A stretch of 23,764 bases of DNA from a virus, in the IMG/VR virus record IMGVR_UViG_3300045996_002109, positions 1 to 23,764 of that record; one strand, given 5' to 3'. Of this stretch, positions 2,063 to 23,557 are shown piece after piece; position 1 is the first letter of the stretch, and the number at the start of each line of letters is the position of its first letter. The notes below the pieces were generated by a model. The model searched no databases and had not been told where the DNA came from. It saw nothing but the letters and a program-made list of their open reading frames with translations. A program made the position numbers and the translations under genes.

Positions 2063-2095
2063 CCCCGTGTGCACCCCCAACCCCCCTTGCCCCCC
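2063..2095. repeat. Four C-tracts ahead of the integrase (G-quadruplex motif on the minus strand)
   Basis: C-runs of 4, 5, 6 and 6 bases lie at 2063-2066, 2074-2078, 2081-2086 and 2090-2095, with loops of 7, 2 and 3 bases. On the minus strand this is a canonical four-tract G-quadruplex pattern, about 35-65 bp before the integrase start. A short GGGTAGGGG follows on the plus strand. Confidence 0.55.
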
Positions 2096-2129
2096 TTGGG
2101 TAGGGGAGCAGCGAAAAAGGCAGCAAAAC

Positions 2130-3227
2130 ATGGCTCAGATCATTCAGAAGGGTCGCGACAAGTTCCAGATCGTGATCGACTACCGTGGCGTCCGTAAGAA
2201 GCACACGCTGATCGGCACCAAGGCCCAGGCGACCCAGTGGGGTCGCGACCGCGAAGCCGAGATCGACCAGGGCGGCAACATCAAGGCCGCGCCGGTTGGC
2301 ACGATCGGTGAGCTGGTCGAGGCCTACGAGCGCGAGATGGAGCCGATCAAGAAGTGGTCCCACACCAAGAGCTACAACCTCTTCAAGGTCAGGAAGGAAA
2401 TCGGCCACGTCGTGCTGGCGAGCTTCGATAAGCAGACCGCGATCGACTACGGCAAGCGGTTGGCCAAGACGCGCGGCCCCAACGGCGTGAAGGAGCGCCT
2501 GAACTACCTGGGCAAGGCGCTGGGCTGGGGCTTCAATCACAAGGACTACCCGCTGGCGCCGCAGATCGAGGCGCTGAGCAAGGCCATGAAGGTCATGGGC
2601 GACCTGAAGGTGGTGGGCGAGGCCCAGGCCCGCACGCGCAACCCGAGCGACGCCGAGATCGACAAGCTGATTGCCACCGCCGAGAAGATGAGCCGTGGCG
2701 GCATCGACATGCCGGCGATCCTGAACGTGCTGCGCGTGCTGCCGCTGCGCGTCGGTGAGCTGTGCCAGATCGAGTGGACCAAGCTCGATCCCCGCGAGCG
2801 CTCGGTGAAGCTGAAGCGCAAGCACCCGACCGATCCCGATTTCGTCCAGGAGGTGGCACTGCCGGTGATCGGCGGCGTCGACACCTACGAGCTGATCGCC
2901 GGCCGCGATCGGTCGCTGCCGCGCCCGTTCCCGTACAGCTCAAAGACGGTGTCGACCTACTTCTGGCTGCTGCACAAGATGGCCGGCATCGAGGACATTC
3001 ACCTGCATGACTTCCGTGCCCACGCGATCACGTGGCTGCGCCTGAACGGTCTCGACAAGATGCAGGCCAAGGCCCTGATGGGCCACAGCAAGGACAGCAA
3101 GGTGCTGGACGAAATCTACACGCGCGTGAAGCCGCGCGACGTGCACGCTGCCATCACCGAAGCCGGCATCGACACCAAGGCCCGGCGCAAGACCGGGCAG
3201 GTGGTCCCGCTGCGGGAGGCCGCATAA
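2130..3227 (+). CDS. int: Tyrosine-recombinase integrase
   Basis: The product is 365 aa, a normal phage-integrase length. The ATG at 2130 follows AAAAAGG with 9-nt spacing; an upstream in-frame start would translate the C-tract. The N-terminal third is a beta-rich DNA-binding part, then a SAM-like core-binding domain (about 70-175). The catalytic domain shows the expected residues: Arg in LPLRVGEL (about 217), Lys near VKLKRKHP, His-x-x-Arg in HDFRAHAITW (about 298-301), His in MGHSKDSK and the nucleophile Tyr in DEIYTRV (about 338). It should integrate and, with the excisionase, excise the phage. The stop overlaps the next ATG (TAATG). Confidence 0.95.
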   Translation: MAQIIQKGRDKFQIVIDYRGVRKKHTLIGTKAQATQWGRDREAEIDQGGNIKAAPVGTIGELVEAYEREMEPIKKWSHTKSYNLFKVRKEIGHVVLASFDKQTAIDYGKRLAKTRGPNGVKERLNYLGKALGWGFNHKDYPLAPQIEALSKAMKVMGDLKVVGEAQARTRNPSDAEIDKLIATAEKMSRGGIDMPAILNVLRVLPLRVGELCQIEWTKLDPRERSVKLKRKHPTDPDFVQEVALPVIGGVDTYELIAGRDRSLPRPFPYSSKTVSTYFWLLHKMAGIEDIHLHDFRAHAITWLRLNGLDKMQAKALMGHSKDSKVLDEIYTRVKPRDVHAAITEAGIDTKARRKTGQVVPLREAA

Positions 3228-3529
3228 TGGCCAAGCGTCGCAAGCGCCGCTCGCAGGCGGCTTTCGACCAGCGCCTGATGAAGGACATCCGCGCCAAGCG
3301 GGTGGCCTTCCTCAGGGAGCTGAGCGAGATGGTCAGCAACGCGGTGGGTGTTCGCATCCGCTGCAGCATCGTCGGCGGTGATGTGGTGGTGCCCAAGCCC
3401 ACCAAGCCGAAGCGGAAGAAGCCGACGCGCCGCGTGGCGCACGTGGCGGGCTACCAGGAGGAGCCGCTGGCCCAGCACCTGGAGCCCGACCAGCAGCCCG
3501 AGCTGCCCGACGATGGGGTGGGCTTCTAG
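3227..3529 (+). CDS. Small basic protein downstream of integrase
   Basis: The product is 100 aa, with its ATG overlapping the integrase stop (TAATG) and GGGAGG at 3214-3219. The N-terminus is very basic (MAKRRKRRSQ), the middle is helical then beta, a second basic patch lies at about residues 58-68 (KPKRKKPTRR), and the tail is acidic and Pro/Gln-rich. The charge pattern suggests nucleic-acid binding, but no family is recognised. Its TAG interlocks with the stop of the convergent gene in the sequence CTAG. Confidence 0.75.
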   Translation: MAKRRKRRSQAAFDQRLMKDIRAKRVAFLRELSEMVSNAVGVRIRCSIVGGDVVVPKPTKPKRKKPTRRVAHVAGYQEEPLAQHLEPDQQPELPDDGVGF

Positions 3530-3982: not shown

Positions 3983-4293
3983 GGCGCTTGCTCCTTCTTC
4001 AGCGTCCAGATCACGGCCTCACGGCCGGCGTGGGTCTGGCGCACCCGGCCGCTGTCGATCACGTGCCCCATCAGCTCCAGCTCACGGCGCCTGGGGCGCT
4101 GGGTGTTGGCGGCCATCGGGATGTCGACCTGCATCTCTTCATCGGTGGCGCCGCTGCAGCCGCGTAGGTGCGCGATGATCTTGCGGTGCATCGGCCCGAT
4201 GTGGCGCTTGATCGCCGCAGCAGCGGCGATCGATGTCGGGCTGTGGGCCTGGGCAGGCGGCTCACCGCCGAAGAGGTCATATTGCTTGGCCAT
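3979..4293 (-). CDS. Winged-helix DNA-binding phage protein
   Basis: The product is 104 aa. The start MAKQYDLFGGE at 4293 is preferred over upstream in-frame codons because those would read Arg/Ser-rich antisense-like sequence and GAGG lies 9 nt before it. The DLFGGEP opening recurs in small phage and plasmid proteins. Residues 35-100 look like a winged helix: HRKIIAHLRGCSGATDEEMQ, then RRRELELMGHVIDSGRV, then a beta wing ending in EAVIWTL. Likely a regulator or replication/recombination accessory. It overlaps the upstream gene by 17 bp. Confidence 0.7.
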   Translation of the reverse strand: MAKQYDLFGGEPPAQAHSPTSIAAAAAIKRHIGPMHRKIIAHLRGCSGATDEEMQVDIPMAANTQRPRRRELELMGHVIDSGRVRQTHAGREAVIWTLKKEQAP

Positions 4294-10734: not shown

Positions 10735-10927
10735 GCGCCGCAAGAAAAACGACCCGTGTCTCAGCGTAAAAATCGAGGACGATCATGCCCGCTGGAATTG
10801 CTGGCACTGCGGTGCCAAGGGCGGAATGGGAGCTACGGGATCAGCACGCGCAAGCACTCGAAAGACGTGGCCTCAGCGTCGAGACAGCGGCGCATCTTGG
10901 CTGGCGAGCGTGCGAAGGGCCTACTGA
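10643..10927 (+). CDS. Primase zinc-binding domain (separate frame from the helicase)
   Basis: ATG at 10643 has AGGGG 7 nt upstream. The first 55 residues are a DnaG/T7 gp4-type zinc ribbon: VTCPWCSAERRKKND, then LSVKIEDDHARWNCWHCGAK (CxxC...CxxC). After that the frame becomes Arg/Ser-rich and stops at 10927, while the matching Toprim-helicase continues in the +1 frame. Shifting by one base near 10817-10820 (GGCGG) would join them without loss. Either the gene is split, the ribosome shifts, or one base is an error. Confidence 0.75.
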   Translation: MSVLADLRRLGIDVRAVAGNQKVTCPWCSAERRKKNDPCLSVKIEDDHARWNCWHCGAKGGMGATGSARASTRKTWPQRRDSGASWLASVRRAY

Positions 10928-12272
10928 CGATCTGTGGATTGCGATCCCGACGATCGACCAGGGCAAACGCGTAGGCACCAAGTACCGCACGATCAGCGGC
11001 GAAAAGCTCTTCACGCAAGAGAAGGGCACGCCGCAGATTTTGTGGAACATCGACTGTCTGCGTAACCCCGACTTCAGGAGCTTCCCGTTGCTCATCACCG
11101 AAGGTGAGCTAGACGGGCTGACGGCCATTCAGTGCGGGTTTGCCAAGACGGTCTCAGTGCCGGGCGGTGCGCCCGATCGCGACGATGAGACGATGGCGAA
11201 ATACTGGTTCTATCTGGAGCACGCCCAGGCGCTGCTGAAGGACCAGAAGCTGATCGTGCTGGCGGTCGACAACGACGCCAAGGGACAGGTGCTGCAGAAC
11301 GCGCTGGCGCAGCGCTTGGGTCGATCGCGCTGTCAGGTGCTGCAGTACCCCACGGGCAAAGACCTGAACGATGTCCTGGTCGCAGGCGGCGCCGATGCGG
11401 TGAAGCGGGTGGTCGGGTTGGCGACCTACTATCCGATCCCTGGTCTGATGCGCATGCGTGACATACCCGAGCGCCCGGTGAAGCGGGCGCTCGACACGAT
11501 GATCCCAGGCCTCGCGCCACACATGCGCATCCGCCGTGGCGACTTCATCGTGGTCACCGGCCCGCCAGGGCACGGCAAGTCGACCTTCATCAGCAACCTG
11601 ATCTGCAACATGGCATGGCACTGGAAGGCGACCACGGCGGTGGCGTCTTTCGAGCAGGCCGTGGTTCCTGATCTGCGCCGCGTGCTGCGCAGCTATCGCG
11701 CCGAGTGCCTGGAGAAGGACATGAGCGACGACCAGAGGATCGTCGCTGATGAGTGGATTGATCGCTACTTCGCCTTCCTCCAGGCCGATGAGGGCGAGGA
11801 CATGACGGTGAGCTGGTTGCTGGAGCGGTTCGCCGCCGCCCAGGTGCGCATGGGCGCCGGCATCGGCGTGATCGATCCCTGGAATGAGGTCTCGATTGTC
11901 GACAAGCCCGAGGAATGGACCACCGAGCAATACGTGAGCCAGAGCCTGCGCGTCATCAAGTCGTTCGCTCGATCGCACGACATGACGATGATCATCGTGG
12001 CGCACCCCAGGAAACTCGGCCGCGACAAGTTCGGCAAAATTCCAAAGCCCACGCTGTGGGACATTGCCGACAGCGCCGCCTGGGCCAATCGCTGCGACCT
12101 GGGGCTCGTGGTCTATCGCCAGGATGTCAAGGACACTGACGGCCTCACAGAAATTTCCGTCGAGAAAAGTCGAGACTTCTACTCACTCGGTACGCCCGGT
12201 ATGGTGACGCTGAAATGGCAACCTGAAGCCTCGCGCTTCATAACCCCAGAGTGGCAACCATGGCAGAAATGA
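10785..12272 (+). CDS. Toprim primase / DnaB-type helicase (T7 gp4-like)
   Basis: The product is 495 aa if started at ATG 10785, which has GAGG 6 nt upstream. Toprim motifs are LLITEGELDGLTA (catalytic Glu) and LIVLAVDNDAKG (DxD); the RecA-type helicase has Walker A VTGPPGHGKSTF (about 259-270), Walker B IGVIDPWNEV, and MTMIIVAHPRKLG in the sensor region. It should unwind the fork and, with a zinc domain, prime the lagging strand. The zinc domain lies upstream in another frame, so this start gives a product like the short gp4B form of T7. The first dozen residues are not family-like. Confidence 0.9.
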   Translation: MPAGIAGTAVPRAEWELRDQHAQALERRGLSVETAAHLGWRACEGPTDDLWIAIPTIDQGKRVGTKYRTISGEKLFTQEKGTPQILWNIDCLRNPDFRSFPLLITEGELDGLTAIQCGFAKTVSVPGGAPDRDDETMAKYWFYLEHAQALLKDQKLIVLAVDNDAKGQVLQNALAQRLGRSRCQVLQYPTGKDLNDVLVAGGADAVKRVVGLATYYPIPGLMRMRDIPERPVKRALDTMIPGLAPHMRIRRGDFIVVTGPPGHGKSTFISNLICNMAWHWKATTAVASFEQAVVPDLRRVLRSYRAECLEKDMSDDQRIVADEWIDRYFAFLQADEGEDMTVSWLLERFAAAQVRMGAGIGVIDPWNEVSIVDKPEEWTTEQYVSQSLRVIKSFARSHDMTMIIVAHPRKLGRDKFGKIPKPTLWDIADSAAWANRCDLGLVVYRQDVKDTDGLTEISVEKSRDFYSLGTPGMVTLKWQPEASRFITPEWQPWQK

Positions 12273-12523
12273 TCGAGGGCGGCTTTGGTGGGCGCCTCGC
12301 CCTGCGCGAAGAAGGCAAGTGGTGGGTCTGCTACTGGGCCAAGCTCGATACGATGACCGGCGCCGTGCCGGTCGCCCGCGTACGCATGAACCTTGTCGTG
12401 GAGCAGCCGCTGCTACGGCAGCAGTTTATCAATTTCTGCAAGGCCTGCTTTGACGTTGCTGCCCGTGAGGCCCTGGGCACTGATCCCGAGTGGCCGAAGC
12501 CACCGATGCCGGCGAAGGACTGA
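12260..12523 (+). CDS. Small protein of unknown function (87 aa)
   Basis: It follows the helicase with a short overlap. ATG at 12260 is preferred (GAGTGG 6 nt upstream), with GTG 12251 and ATG 12269 as alternatives. A beta-sheet-like opening (GGFGGRLALREEGKWWVCYW) is followed by a helical end (LLRQQFINFCKACFDVAARE). It is carried in the replication operon and has no recognised family. Confidence 0.65.
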   Translation: MAEMIEGGFGGRLALREEGKWWVCYWAKLDTMTGAVPVARVRMNLVVEQPLLRQQFINFCKACFDVAAREALGTDPEWPKPPMPAKD

Positions 12524-19130: not shown

Positions 19131-19288
19131 CCTACGTGGACGTAGACGCAGGCGTACGATAGCCAACGTGAACGTAGGCGTCTACGCATAACGTAGACGC
19201 CAACGCGCAACGTGGACGTAGGCGTAGATGTGGGTGGTCTGAACGTGAACGTGGGCGCAGATGTAGACGGCGAACGTAGGCGTAGGGC
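19131..19288. repeat. Degenerate hexamer array (RRCGTR) with embedded 23-bp palindrome
   Basis: About twenty imperfect copies of a 6-bp unit like GACGTA, AACGTG or GGCGTA fill the gap between genes at 19121 and 19310. Longer repeats such as AACGTGGACGTAGGCGTAG recur near 19165, 19209, 19242 and 19272. Within it CTACGCATAACGTAG (19182-19196) extends to perfect 9-bp arms (19178-19200) and belongs to the operator family seen around the repressor. Frames through the array give only dipeptide-like repeats (DV, NV, GV) and are not genes. Confidence 0.75.
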
Positions 19289-19309
19289 ACCGGGCCTGGA
19301 CGCCGCCGC

Positions 19310-19528
19310 TCACCGTGAACGTGACTGCAGCTCACCTAGCAGCGCGGCAGATCGGAGCTGCATCAGCCGATGCAGCCGTTCCCAAACACCGCGCGGGACC
19401 GGCATGCGATCGGCCGCCCAGCGGCGTACGGTCCGCTCGTTCACGTCGAGCAGACGCGCAAGCGCTTGCATCCAGAGCGGCCCGCATAGGGCCGCCCCAG
19501 TTGCGCAAAGTAATTCACCGTCACTCAT
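19310..19528 (-). CDS. Small HTH regulator, paralogue of the one at 13629
   Basis: The product is 72 aa. The HTH LCGPLWMQALARLLDVNERT and VRRWAADRMPVPRGVWERL follows the same GxxWxxxLARxLxVxxRTxRRWxxxxxPVPxxVW pattern as the 13629-13877 product. The ATG overlaps the upstream stop (ATGA). It may read the palindromes in the array directly downstream. Confidence 0.75.
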   Translation of the reverse strand: MSDGELLCATGAALCGPLWMQALARLLDVNERTVRRWAADRMPVPRGVWERLHRLMQLRSAALLGELQSRSR

Positions 19529-19965
19529 GCGAGGTACAATAGGCCATCGTCGCCCGCGTATAGGTCGACATTGCGATGACGGCAGGCCTTGCTAAGAGCC
19601 TCGCCAACGTCGCCCAGGCCGCTATCCCAAAAACCCGTGCCATGACCGTTGCGCGTGTACCAGAAATCACGGCCTGCAGCGGCAGCATCGTACGGGCCGC
19701 AACGGCCCGCTAGCGTGGTCGCGGCAAGCTCATACGCCTTGGCCAGCAATGCCGATTGCTCGGCCTGGAACCGCGCGCAATCGGCCATGATGGCCGCCAG
19801 CGTGCAAGGTGCCAGATCACTGACCGTGGCGTGTTCCAGCTCGGGATTATCGCCATGACAGTCAGTGAAAAATATTGCCTCTACATAGCCTTGCGTAAAG
19901 GCGTCTAGGGTGGCGAATGTGCGCGACCCCTCAGGGCCGCCAGTGTCCAGAATAAATTCAGGCAT
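19525..19965 (-). CDS. Conserved-looking phage protein (146 aa)
   Basis: GAGGTG lies 3 nt before the ATG at 19965. Helical middle (CTLAAIMADCARFQAEQSAL), then an aromatic/Gly segment RDFWYTRNGHGTGFWDSGLG and a C-terminal VDLYAGDDGLLYL. I recall similar FW.TRNGHG.GFWDR.. segments in phage and plasmid proteins with no known role. It follows structured leader 1. Seven residues are Cys or His in the N-terminal half, but no clear metal site. Confidence 0.7.
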   Translation of the reverse strand: MPEFILDTGGPEGSRTFATLDAFTQGYVEAIFFTDCHGDNPELEHATVSDLAPCTLAAIMADCARFQAEQSALLAKAYELAATTLAGRCGPYDAAAAGRDFWYTRNGHGTGFWDSGLGDVGEALSKACRHRNVDLYAGDDGLLYLA

Positions 19966-19981
19966 GTCACCTCACATAGCC

Positions 19982-20041
19982 GGGCATGATTGCCCCTGCA
20001 ACGCCTTAGGCCCGCGTACGGGTTTCAAACCGTAGCGGGCC
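19982..20041 (-). promoter_or_regulatory. Structured leader 1
   Basis: On plus coordinates: GGGC-N6-GCCC mini-hairpin (19982-19995), CTGCAACGCCTTA (19996-20008), then a 33-nt hairpin (20009-20041) of 7 bp, one bulged base, 5 bp and an 8-nt loop. As minus-strand RNA the hairpin comes first, ending 43 nt before the ATG at 19965. The arm sequence GTAGCGGGCCTA also occurs a second time at 20052-20063, so an alternative pairing is possible. Leader 2 has the same design. Confidence 0.7.
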
Positions 20042-20060
20042 TATTGTTTGCGTAGCGGGC

Positions 20061-20330
20061 CTAATAGCGGCGCGTTTGGCTGCTATAGGGGCCTGGAATG
20101 CTTTGGCCTAGTGGCCACGTGCACCCCGTCGAATAGCAGTGATTGCGGTCCCCGATGTGGCCAGCCTCACCTGGAAATAGCGTGTTTTCGTACCATTCCA
20201 GATCACTGGCATACTGTGGCGCGTAGTATGTGCCATCGTCGCGCCGCACGCGCGCCCAGGCTGGCACATGGTCCATAGTGTAGCGGTGCACATACTGGCT
20301 GCAGGCCTGTCGAAATGTTGGGCGCGTCAT
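20061..20330 (-). CDS. Small phage protein (89 aa)
   Basis: MTRPTFRQACSQYVHRYTMD..., helical at first, then aromatic-rich (DDGTYYAPQYASDLEWYENT) and ending in a Cys-containing loop (NHCYSTGCTWPLG). It starts 3 nt after the upstream stop. Its TAG lies in the repeated GTAGCGGGCCTA element. No family recognised. Confidence 0.65.
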   Translation of the reverse strand: MTRPTFRQACSQYVHRYTMDHVPAWARVRRDDGTYYAPQYASDLEWYENTLFPGEAGHIGDRNHCYSTGCTWPLGQSIPGPYSSQTRRY

Positions 20331-20333
20331 GGC

Positions 20334-20645
20334 CTAGCACTCCTCCTCTGCCGATTGCGTAAGGTATTCCTCTTCGGTCAGGCCCGAAAAGAAAAGATAT
20401 TCCCCGTTGCCGATGTCCAGATTGAAATGCGCAGAGCTGGAACCGTGGCGCGCGATGAAGCGCCACAAGCGACGGATTTTCACATCATCGAAACGGCATG
20501 CTGGCGCATCCAGCATGCGCAAGTATTCGCGGATGGTGGCGGCCAGATCGGCACGGGTTGCCATCTCATGGGCGCCGAAGTGTGAGTTAGGCATATATCC
20601 CGGCATGCCGCTGTAAATGGCGTAGCGGGCGACGTTGCGTGACAT
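20334..20645 (-). CDS. Small phage protein (103 aa)
   Basis: MSRNVARYAIYSGMPGYMPN... begins with a Gly/Tyr/Pro-rich part, then helices (ATRADLAATIREYLRMLDAP), then FDDVKIRRLWRFIARHG and a beta end (EYLFFSGLTEEEYL). It follows structured leader 2 and is coupled to the gene at 20061-20330. No family recognised. Confidence 0.65.
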   Translation of the reverse strand: MSRNVARYAIYSGMPGYMPNSHFGAHEMATRADLAATIREYLRMLDAPACRFDDVKIRRLWRFIARHGSSSAHFNLDIGNGEYLFFSGLTEEEYLTQSAEEEC

Positions 20646-20666
20646 AGGGTCATTTCCCTTTCTAGG

Positions 20667-20728
20667 TGGCGTGATTGCCAGCCTGCAACGCCTTAGGGCC
20701 GCTACGCGTCTTTAACCGCGTGCGGCCC
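20667..20728 (-). promoter_or_regulatory. Structured leader 2
   Basis: On plus coordinates: TGGC-N6-GCCA mini-hairpin (20667-20680), CTGCAACGCCTTA (20683-20695, identical to leader 1) and a 33-nt hairpin (20696-20728): arms GGGCCGC/GCGGCCC, bulged T, ACGCG/CGCGT, loop TCTTTAAC. Leader 1 uses GGCCCGC/GCGGGCC, bulged G and TACGG/CCGTA, so most pairs differ while pairing is kept. The hairpin ends 50 nt before the ATG at 20645. Confidence 0.7.
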
Positions 20729-20747: not shown

Positions 20748-20807
20748 CTACCTAGACGTTAGCAAGGCAAAGGAGAGTGCCAAAACGATGATTGTGCCCC
20801 AGATCAT
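20748..20807 (-). CDS. 19-residue hydrophobic peptide
   Basis: ATG at 20807 overlaps the stop of the gene upstream (ATGA). The peptide MIWGTIIVLALSFALLTSR is one membrane-spanning stretch with a basic end. So short a frame could arise by chance, but the coupling and the small membrane proteins upstream make it credible. Confidence 0.4.
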   Translation of the reverse strand: MIWGTIIVLALSFALLTSR

Positions 20808-20926
20808 TTGCGTCGCCTCTTCGGTCTAGCGTTGTATCTGTCGATTGCGTAGCAGCCTGCCAGTATGGCCGCGAACACTGGCGACAGCATGGCCGCCAGC
20901 ATGATGGCCTCAGTTAGAGCGAACAT
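20804..20926 (-). CDS. 40-residue single-pass membrane protein
   Basis: ATG at 20926 is 2 nt after the upstream stop. MFALTEAIMLAAMLSPVFAA plus ILAGC is a membrane helix, followed by a very basic tail (DRYNARPKRRRK) that should stay in the cytoplasm. Second of three consecutive small membrane genes. Confidence 0.55.
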   Translation of the reverse strand: MFALTEAIMLAAMLSPVFAAILAGCYAIDRYNARPKRRRK

Positions 20927-20928
20927 GG

Positions 20929-21159
20929 TTACAGCGGCGGGTTGCGGTCAGTACGATACGCAATGCGCAGACGCATTGCCGCGTATTCATCGCCGCGCGT
21001 GAAATAGCCGGGCCGCTCTTTCAGCATCACCCTGGCGAAACCGGCCCGCGTGCGGGCCTTTTTGCCTTCAAAGTCTTTGCGGCAGCCTGTCGAATGCTCC
21101 CACATAACGTGCATCATGATCACAACGGAAATGGCCTCAACGGCAGCAACTGGCAACAT
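20929..21159 (-). CDS. Small membrane-anchored protein (76 aa)
   Basis: GGAG lies 6 nt before the ATG at 21159. Hydrophobic N-terminus MLPVAAVEAISVVIMMHVMW (one membrane helix), then a basic cytoplasmic part (KDFEGKKARTRAGFARVM, RLRIAYRTDR). First gene of the minus-strand unit controlled from the divergent gap 21160-21363. Function unknown. Confidence 0.65.
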   Translation of the reverse strand: MLPVAAVEAISVVIMMHVMWEHSTGCRKDFEGKKARTRAGFARVMLKERPGYFTRGDEYAAMRLRIAYRTDRNPPL

Positions 21160-21191
21160 TTCAACTCCTATGCCGGGCCTAATTGCCCAAT

Positions 21192-21207
21192 GCCACACAT
21201 ATATGGC
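21192..21207. promoter_or_regulatory. 16-mer operator at the divergent accessory promoters (left)
   Basis: GCCACACATATATGGC, extended to AATGCCA/TGGCATT arms (21189-21210). On the minus strand it covers the -10 position of a TTGCAA-N17 promoter for the small membrane-protein unit. Member of the GCCAYA-N4-TRTGGC family. Confidence 0.6.
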
Positions 21208-21283
21208 ATTGCCGTTTGACCGTTGCAAGCGAATTGCCGCTAAGTATTTAAGAAAACATTAGGGAATTTTCGGGATATGGGCT

Positions 21284-21319: not shown

Positions 21320-21363
21320 CGGGGCATTCCGCCCCAATGACAGGGCATAGGAGGCCCTACACA

Positions 21364-22073: not shown

Positions 22074-22643
22074 ATGGTCACGCAAGCTATCCACGTTCGT
22101 TTCGCCGGCCCTACTGATTTCAGAGGCTCGCGCTACATCGCCAAGTGTCAGGCAGGCCGCAAAGTGTGGCACTCTGACCACGCGCTAAACCCGTCACAGA
22201 ATGCACGCAAGGCCGCCGAGGCCTTGCGCGATCACCTGCAATGGAACACCGCGCGCCATGGCGACATGGCAGGCGGTGCAATGCCTGATGGTTCCTACGT
22301 TTTCGTTTTCGTGGAACGGTCAGAGCTTGGCGCGGCCCTGGCCGATCTGGTCGACAAGGCGACCACGGTTAGCGCTCGCTGGTCTAGCGGTGATCTGGCT
22401 GGGGCCGTTCGCGAGCTGGACAAGGCCGCCGAGAATGGCGCCGCTGCCCTGGTCGCGGCGCGCGTGAAAGGTGATCTAGTCGACCGTTGCCTAGCCAGTG
22501 TGGCGCGCATGCTGCCTTGGCTTGGCAAGATGATTGCCGATGGTGGTCACCTGCAGGCCGTCCTGCCAAACGATGCAGAGGCCGCCATGCGGCAAGCCCA
22601 GGCTCTACTAGATGACGCCAGATCACGCGGTTATCTGCCATAA
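22074..22643 (+). CDS. Two-domain accessory protein (189 aa)
   Basis: Residues 1-75 are a beta/alpha domain (AIHVRFAGPTDFRGSRYIAK, then WHSDHALNPSQNARKAAEAL) of a type I recall from mobile elements (GPT..RGSR..A..QAG...DHAL), followed by YVFVFVE. Residues 80-189 are helical (LADLVDKATTVSARW, AVRELDKAAENGAAALVAAR). The last codons and stop lie inside a 16-mer operator-like palindrome and the terminator. Confidence 0.65.
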   Translation: MVTQAIHVRFAGPTDFRGSRYIAKCQAGRKVWHSDHALNPSQNARKAAEALRDHLQWNTARHGDMAGGAMPDGSYVFVFVERSELGAALADLVDKATTVSARWSSGDLAGAVRELDKAAENGAAALVAARVKGDLVDRCLASVARMLPWLGKMIADGGHLQAVLPNDAEAAMRQAQALLDDARSRGYLP

Positions 22644-22668: not shown

Positions 22669-22696
22669 ATACGGGCCGCCAGTGTGCGGCCCGTAT
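22669..22696 (+). terminator. Second strong hairpin
   Basis: ATACGGGCCGC (22669-22679) pairs perfectly with GCGGCCCGTAT (22686-22696) across 6 nt; GCCTTTT follows. It may back up the first terminator. The GGCCCGTAT arm is also complementary to ATACGGGCC at 22930-22938. Confidence 0.65.
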
Positions 22697-23037: not shown

Positions 23038-23068
23038 TTGATTGCATTACGCACCATCGTATGGTGCG
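23038..23068 (+). promoter_or_regulatory. Terminase promoter with overlapping palindrome
   Basis: TTGATT (23038-23043), a 16-bp spacer and TATGGT (23060-23065) form a plausible promoter. CGCACCAT (23050-23057) and ATGGTGCG (23061-23068) are perfect 8-base arms around CGT and cover the -10, so a bound protein would block transcription of the terminase gene. Confidence 0.55.
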
Positions 23069-23101
23069 GGCCTGTCACAGTACGGGATGCGTAATTGTCC
23101 C

Positions 23102-23557
23102 ATGGCCAAAGCCACCAAGCCCAAGCCCAATGGCCTATCGCTCAAACAATCGCGGTTCGCGCGTGAATACGCGCGCCATGGCAATGGCACCAAGGCTGCC
23201 AAGGTTGCCGGCTATCGTGGGAGCGATGTCGCCTTAGGCGTCATGGCGCATGACAACCTAAGGAAGCCTAAGGTTGCATCTGCAATTGATCAGGAATTGA
23301 AAGCGATTGAGCGGGATTTCTCGCCCGATAGGGTGCGGCGTCGGCTCGACAGCATCAGCCACGCGGCGGAACGCGATGGTCAGTACGGGCCTGCAGTCAG
23401 AGCCGAGGAATTGCTAGGCAAGGCCGCTGGGATGTGGATTGACCAGAGCCTGCAGTTGACTGGCGTTCTCTCTGACAGTCACGTTGCTGCCCTGGTCGCA
23501 GGTGCAAAGCAGCGCCAATTGCAACCCGTCGACAATCGGGATAGCGACGATGACTAG
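23102..23557 (+). CDS. terS: Terminase small subunit
   Basis: The product is 151 aa from ATG 23102 (weak ribosome site). Residues about 11-60 match the Terminase_2 family: LSLKQSRFAREYARHGNGTK, AAKVAGYRGSDVALGVMAHD, then NLRKPKVASAIDQEL, the DNA-recognising HTH. The rest is helical (about 75-125, oligomerisation) with an acidic tail (DNRDSDDD). It selects phage DNA for packaging and loads the large subunit, which is not in the window. It marks the start of the packaging genes, or of a packaging-hijack module. Confidence 0.85.
   Translation: MAKATKPKPNGLSLKQSRFAREYARHGNGTKAAKVAGYRGSDVALGVMAHDNLRKPKVASAIDQELKAIERDFSPDRVRRRLDSISHAAERDGQYGPAVRAEELLGKAAGMWIDQSLQLTGVLSDSHVAALVAGAKQRQLQPVDNRDSDDD

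Follow-up and report, generated by a model that had tools for sequence, protein, structure and literature searches.

In phage T7, processing hairpins (RNase III sites) of varied sequence are situated between co-transcribed genes, shortly before the start codons. In the Cluster K mycobacteriophages, the SAS/ESAS elements, in which a short conserved sequence is combined with an upstream inverted repeat, are present in many copies (PMC3203893), and similar repeats are found in Cluster EF Microbacterium phages (PMC7302621). The ESAS arms are alike in sequence at different sites, and SigA-like promoter hexamers occur within them (PMC11373665); because of these two properties, the ESAS are probably DNA sites or operators. 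The put RNA of phage HK022 is composed of two stem-loops within approximately 70 nt, with a bulge, and its copies differ in sequence; one put site is situated near each early promoter (PMC9378689).

The hairpins described here were identified in a 23.8-kb phage fragment from IMG/VR (G+C content 62.7%), the whole of which is referred to below as the window. These CCUNAGGC hairpins resemble the T7 sites in that they vary in sequence and occupy the gap between co-directional phage genes, but they differ in their shorter duplex, single bulge and fixed 3′-flank. Like SAS/ESAS, they are found in many copies, in intergenic gaps ahead of the start codons of non-structural genes (PMC3203893, PMC7302621). 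In contrast to ESAS, their arms vary while pairing is kept, and no promoter-like site was seen in the two leaders of the window. The SAS 13-mer itself (GGGATAGGAGCCC, approximately 3–9 nt from the start codon) is absent at both of the window junctions, and a covariance model of the family (R3, described below) found no member in TM4 or Adephagia (best E value 0.32). The likeness to put is one of shape: tandem stem-loops with a bulge, which are predicted in many copies although not in every one, a length of approximately 70 nt and sequence-divergent copies. Unlike put, the CCUNAGGC family is situated at several junctions per operon, its loop is often a GNRA tetraloop and it carries the CCUNAGGC flank. 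No description of this hairpin family was found in the accessible literature. A search against the 4227 families of Rfam 15 left the window unmatched, and the regions around the window element and in L047, L084 and L086 remained so even at an E value of 0.5.

The two hairpins of the window

The window encodes an integrase (2067–3227), a primase/helicase (10785–12272) and a small terminase subunit (23042–23557). Both hairpins are located within an operon on the minus strand, the small genes of which have no known function. Copy 1 (20009–20041, minus strand; GGCCCGC-TACGG-TTTGAAAC-CCGTA-(C bulge)-GCGGGCC) begins 19 nt past the stop codon of an 89 aa gene (20061–20330, minus strand), relatives of which occur in L044 and L047, two records that likewise bear intercistronic hairpin arrays. 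Downstream of copy 1 is a 146 aa gene assigned to PHROG 1915 (19525–19965, minus strand). Copy 2 (20696–20728, minus strand; GGGCCGC-ACGCG-GTTAAAGA-CGCGT-(A bulge)-GCGGCCC) is followed by a 103 aa gene with weak similarity to Rhodobacter phages (20334–20645, minus strand). The nearby minus-strand junctions without the element are those at which the genes overlap or almost touch.

The coordinates given for these hairpins in the original prediction are exact, and each hairpin has an 8-nt loop on an inner stem of 5 bp, which a single bulged base separates from an outer stem of 7 bp. These are the only two perfect Watson–Crick hairpins of that architecture in the window, and none was present in 100 shuffled windows. 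When the minus (transcript) strand was folded, copy 1 gave –27.7 kcal/mol (z –3.2) and copy 2 gave –32.6 kcal/mol (z –3.7). Start codons had been placed 43–50 nt beyond the hairpins, and this too is correct: the ATG at 19965 is 43 nt from copy 1 and that at 20645 is 50 nt from copy 2, for which an alternative ATG at 20653 would be 42 nt away. Neither hairpin is accompanied by a T-run, and a terminator scan flags neither.

The differences between the arms of the two copies had been interpreted as compensatory changes. It is apparent that the arms do differ and do pair, but a gapped alignment reveals that most of the difference is a shift in the register of the bulge by one base. With gaps allowed, the stems are approximately three-quarters identical, and the single clean double change is that of an outer pair from C-G to G-C. 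The covariation between the two copies was over-read, and a selected structure would remain a weak proposition if it were drawn from the two window copies alone. The second arm copy described for leader 1 is also real; it is situated at 20052–20063 and begins in the upstream stop codon (20061–20063). The alternative fold that it allows is thermodynamically possible (116 nt) and is not conserved. Since leader 1 is the only one with the extra arm copy, which is missing in leader 2 and in the homologous leaders of the related phages L070 and L080, the suggestion of a switch between folds is unsupported.

A 13-mer shared by the two copies adjoins both hairpins, as predicted, and has exactly two exact occurrences; the shared block is in fact longer, comprising CCTAAGGCGTTGCAGG, then GGCAATCA and GCC. 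The conserved 3′-flank is TAAGGCGTTGCAGGGG in copy 1 (19993–20008, minus strand) and TAAGGCGTTGCAGGCT in copy 2 (20680–20695, minus strand). The flank probably leads into a second small hairpin, GGGCA-ATCA-TGCCC in copy 1 (19982–19995, minus strand), which is weak when taken alone (z –0.3), and TGGC-AATCAC-GCCA in copy 2 (20667–20680, minus strand; z –2.9), in which the outer pair is U-A in place of the G-C of copy 1. The evidence that these sequences form hairpins in the RNA (GGGCA-AUCA-UGCCC and UGGC-AAUCAC-GCCA) is modest.

Homologues in related phages and covariation of the stems

In IMG/VR, exact searches with the window 15-mer or with the second-hairpin block produced nothing beyond chance matches, and in 84,980 species genomes there was no match at all. 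A blastn search for the element among phages and plasmids found nothing, and in the named phages, plasmids and bacterial genomes searched the element was not found. Homologues of gene 19525–19965 obtained by direct protein search (32–54% identity) have no such hairpin ahead of them. The route that worked was a search with gene 22074–22643, which led to L070 and L071, followed by a search for the hairpin-plus-flank pattern. L070 and L071 are two records of one sister phage, which has ten genes in common with the window and a small terminase that is 68% identical. Between two genes of L070 is the sequence GGCCCGC-ACGC-GAAA-GCGT-A-GCGGGCC-TAAGGC, which has the same design as the window hairpins.

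Eleven IMG/VR stretches matched the pattern of outer stem and flank, and among these were six different phages with an inner stem. Although no inner stem was demanded by the pattern, one of 4 bp or more was present in 6 of 10 matches, compared with a mean of 0.6 (maximum 4) when the interiors were shuffled; given these unrequested inner stems, the hairpin matches are not an artefact of the search pattern. The matches in L077, L081, L083 and L087 are without an inner stem and were regarded as chance. L080 shares approximately seven genes with the window, and its hairpin precedes the homologue of gene 19525–19965, the same slot as that of copy 1. L086, which has the small terminase in common with the window (56%), contains two copies that differ in their inner stems; a further candidate in that record (3240–3275) was rejected as an intrinsic terminator belonging to the opposite strand. 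The outer stems of the L047 copies are quite different, and after them comes the same flank, which reads TAAGGCATTAGGAGG in the best copy. The TAAGGC of the copy 1 flank is common to the homologues in L070, L082, L084, L085, L086 and L047. The count is approximately 16 copies in 8 phages, two of which (L070 and L080) are syntenic relatives of the window phage, with one to four copies per phage record: four each in L084 and L047/L048, two each in the window and L086, and one each in L070/L071, L080, L085 and L082.

A covariance model, R2, was built from four copies (L070, both from L086, and L084), with the window copies excluded. With filters off, its two best matches in the window were the hairpins of copy 1, at 39.4 bits, and copy 2, at 35.8 bits (E values of 4e–7 and 2e–6), the next best match having 16.4 bits. 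R2 also recovered three further copies in L084 as well as copies in L047. The model was then rebuilt from 15 matches as R3, in which one row is the doubtful L077. When R3 was run on 50 whole phage records, 10 of them gave matches, three of which (L077, L081 and L083, without an inner stem) were treated as chance; the other 40, among which were three named phages, gave none.

The alignment of 15 rows, 14 of them distinct, had been fitted to the structure, and the doubtful L077 is among its rows. In it, 95.3% of cells are paired and 8 of the 11 pairs change on both sides. Its covariation score of 0.414 compares with 0.075 (sd 0.028) in shuffles, none of 500 of which reached it, and with 0.02–0.06 when the structure was slid along the alignment. 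The four non-window copies, aligned without gaps by MAFFT, gave a score of 0.530 versus 0.130 when shuffled. In L047 the outer stem itself covaries (GGCGGG/CCCGCC, GGCGAG/CTCGCC and GCGCGG/CCGCGC).

Further homologues with covarying stems were what the original prediction of a new structured RNA hinged upon, their absence having been named as refuting it; since related phages do carry such homologues, with strong covariation in the stems, the structured-RNA reading is supported. The window hairpins are thus very probably copies of an intercistronic structured RNA family carried in the operons of related phages. On the transcript strand, the consensus runs from a stop codon through a spacer of approximately 20–30 nt to a GC-rich outer stem of 6–8 bp and a single bulge of one base, which in most cases is in the 3′-arm. 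The inner stem, of 3–6 bp, differs in sequence in nearly every copy and is closed by a loop that is often a GNRA tetraloop. The CCUNAGGC flank comes next, often with a second short hairpin after it, and then a ribosome-binding site and a start codon, the latter approximately 75–90 nt from where the hairpin begins.

The second small hairpin, ahead of the ribosome-binding site, is predicted in many copies but not in all; its sequence is conserved only inside sub-groups, and it is not evident in L082 and in one L086 copy. The L080 counterpart of the copy 1 second hairpin, GGGC-AATAGG-GCCC, is situated ahead of the same gene. The second hairpin is clearest in L047, where a form with an invariant TTGCCG loop and a tail (AACCGAGAGG) is found at seven gene junctions. 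The arms of these TTGCCG-loop hairpins (L047:536–3718) covary, with all five of the counted pairs changing on both sides, and the tail precedes the start codon.

Two side observations are recorded here. Gene 20929–21228 of the window (minus strand) corresponds to gene 3928–4158 of L070 (plus strand), and it flanks a conserved divergent region on one side in the window and on the other side in L070; the gene has, therefore, moved between the two operons. A strong hairpin is also present at 22669–22696 of the window (ATACGGGCCGCCAGTGTGCGGCCCGTAT), preceded by TTTTTTT and approximately 25 nt past the stop codon of gene 22074–22643 (plus strand); it is a weak model match only (16.4 bits; 10.8 bits).

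Placement between genes and possible function

The hairpin begins 18–33 nt past a stop codon (of an open frame of at least 45 codons on the same strand) in 14 of the 16 copies. The exceptions are L082, in which the stop codon is 53 nt before the hairpin, and window copy 2, before which the listed small gene 20804–20926 ends at 75 nt and a shorter open frame ends at 23 nt. From the first base of the hairpin to the next start codon the distance is 62–92 nt (14 copies, with the start assigned by frame length), and the hairpins are always oriented with the genes. The leader position that was originally proposed is therefore supported, the spacing to both codons being near constant. A regulatory role would be inferred from position only. 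A ribosome that finishes at the stop codon leaves the hairpin uncovered, and the next ribosome-binding site lies beyond the element, a spacing that suits processing, translation control, antitermination or termination alike.

On the transcript strand, the hairpin-1 stems (chosen by eye) contain four G-U pairs and no A-C pairs, an argument that favours RNA with few pairs behind it; read on the opposite strand, the four would be mismatched. The odd G-U pairs, the free variation of the arms and the fixed orientation are the reasons for favouring RNA over a DNA cruciform. The hairpin would presumably be transcribed and act within the polycistronic mRNA. In a plausible, if tentative, mechanism, and the one preferred here, the hairpins would act after transcription to separate the cistrons. 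Hairpin 1 might be a cleavage, exonuclease-stop or protein-binding site, and each downstream gene would thereby gain a protected 5′-end and be set individually for translation. This proposal is modelled, by analogy, on the T7 processing sites between early genes; the duplex of hairpin 1, at 9–13 bp, is short for an RNase III site, and this counts against it.

It is also possible that a phage or host protein binds the hairpins and co-regulates the translation of several genes. Processive antitermination like that of the HK022 put RNA, in which two nascent stem-loops bind RNA polymerase and carry it past terminators, would account for two stem-loops within approximately 70 nt, the first of them bulged, and for several copies per phage that are alike in shape and different in sequence; it is unlikely, however, given copies at several within-operon junctions, up to four per phage, as opposed to one put per early promoter in HK022. 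A GC-rich hairpin approximately 20 nt past a stop codon is in the usual place for a terminator, and a terminator or attenuator without a U-tract (e.g. factor-dependent) might follow each gene. Against this, no copy has a U-run, the stem is followed by a conserved sequence, CCUNAGGC, the scan flagged no window hairpin, and full termination in mid-operon would need internal promoters, of which none was seen in the window leaders; this explanation is likewise improbable.

More doubtful still is a DNA element, i.e. an operator, cruciform or recombination site flanking exchangeable genes. The hairpins are palindromic, the phages are mosaic, and the hairpins are still at the junctions although gene 20929–21228 has switched strands relative to L070. 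But the arms vary almost freely as long as they pair, a freedom incompatible with recognition by a sequence-specific DNA protein, and the gene-directed orientation, the G-U pairs on the transcript strand and the near-constant spacing to stop and start codons are further points against it. Finally, the two hairpins might be alike by descent from a local duplication, their match being due to chance or template switching and not to selection for an RNA structure. The window copies by themselves yield a single clean double change, and they align approximately as well when one is flipped as when both are read directly, but in the copies of seven other phages the fold is preserved although the stems, inner as well as outer, take many different sequences, so that this explanation is refuted in the main and has very little probability.

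Three other candidates were considered and dropped. The bulged palindrome suggested an integron attC site or an IS200/IS605 end; no attC box pair flanks the hairpins, and both copies have the same flank on the same side. The CCUAAG sequence together with GAAA loops suggested a GAAA tetraloop receptor (CCUAAG with UAUGG), of which the UAUGG half is missing.

The early and accessory operons of phages contain many small genes of unknown function, and how levels are set gene by gene in them is poorly known. A covarying RNA module at gene junctions would be a concrete and testable answer, and the model can be searched in other phages; natural hairpins of diverse sequence could also be insulators between genes in synthetic operons. 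A speculative and rather doubtful extension is that RNA-level regulons have been built independently by several phage groups, each with a hairpin of fixed shape at most operon junctions and one trans-acting protein, which would set the processing or translation of all such genes together. At least three such designs are seen here, namely the CCUNAGGC hairpins, the TCAACAG/ATTGAACGCCAC family and the UUGCCG-loop hairpins of L047.

Parallel hairpin families and other repeats

A second intercistronic family, TGAC-N2-TCAACAG / ATTGAACGCCAC, with arms that covary, was observed in L044 (229–3893), L058, L060, L064 and L068. Approximately eleven copies are present in L044, eight in L060 and one each in L064 and L068. 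The order of the module is TGAC-N2-TCAACAG, covarying hairpin, CGATTGAACGCCAC, ribosome-binding site and start codon, and in the cases looked at the initial TGA is a stop codon. Covariation is strong, with 7 of 17 pairs changing on both sides. This family is like that of the window in its succession of stop codon, constant flank, covarying hairpin, ribosome-binding site and start codon, and the L044 operon holds the relative of the 89 aa gene of the window; its constant sequences, in contrast, differ from those of the window family. A model of the L044-type family (R1), run with filters off, gave no match at either window hairpin, and R2 and R3 did not find the L044-type family. As R1 misses the window copies, the two families are considered alike in design, and no relationship is inferred.

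Several further repeats were noted. In Rhodobacter phage RcSalem (L034), near-identical intergenic repeats with a hairpin (CGGCCGCGCTTCCCTTGATAGGGGCGCGGCCG) at 10820–10960 and 12259–12400 adjoin a homologue of window gene 20334–20645. Multi-copy boxes (GCGCGGAGCGCTCGC) are found at 589, 2703, 2957 and 3182 in Bradyrhizobium phage BDU-MI-1 (L033), and a short repeat (CCTATGCGAGAAA) is present in multiple copies in Caulobacter phage CcrSC (L021). Within the window, degenerate direct repeats (ACGTGGACGTAGACGCAG and variants) are clustered in a gap of the minus-strand operon at 19134–19330, and L070 has a similar run at approximately 2600–2650. Just 5′ of an ATG, sequences close to the SAS GGGATAGGAGCCC occur in the window (GGGCATAGGAGGCCC; 21343–21357, plus strand) and in L070 (GGGCAATAGGAGGCCC; 4244–4259, plus strand); at these sites the Shine–Dalgarno core is in the loop of a possible small hairpin.
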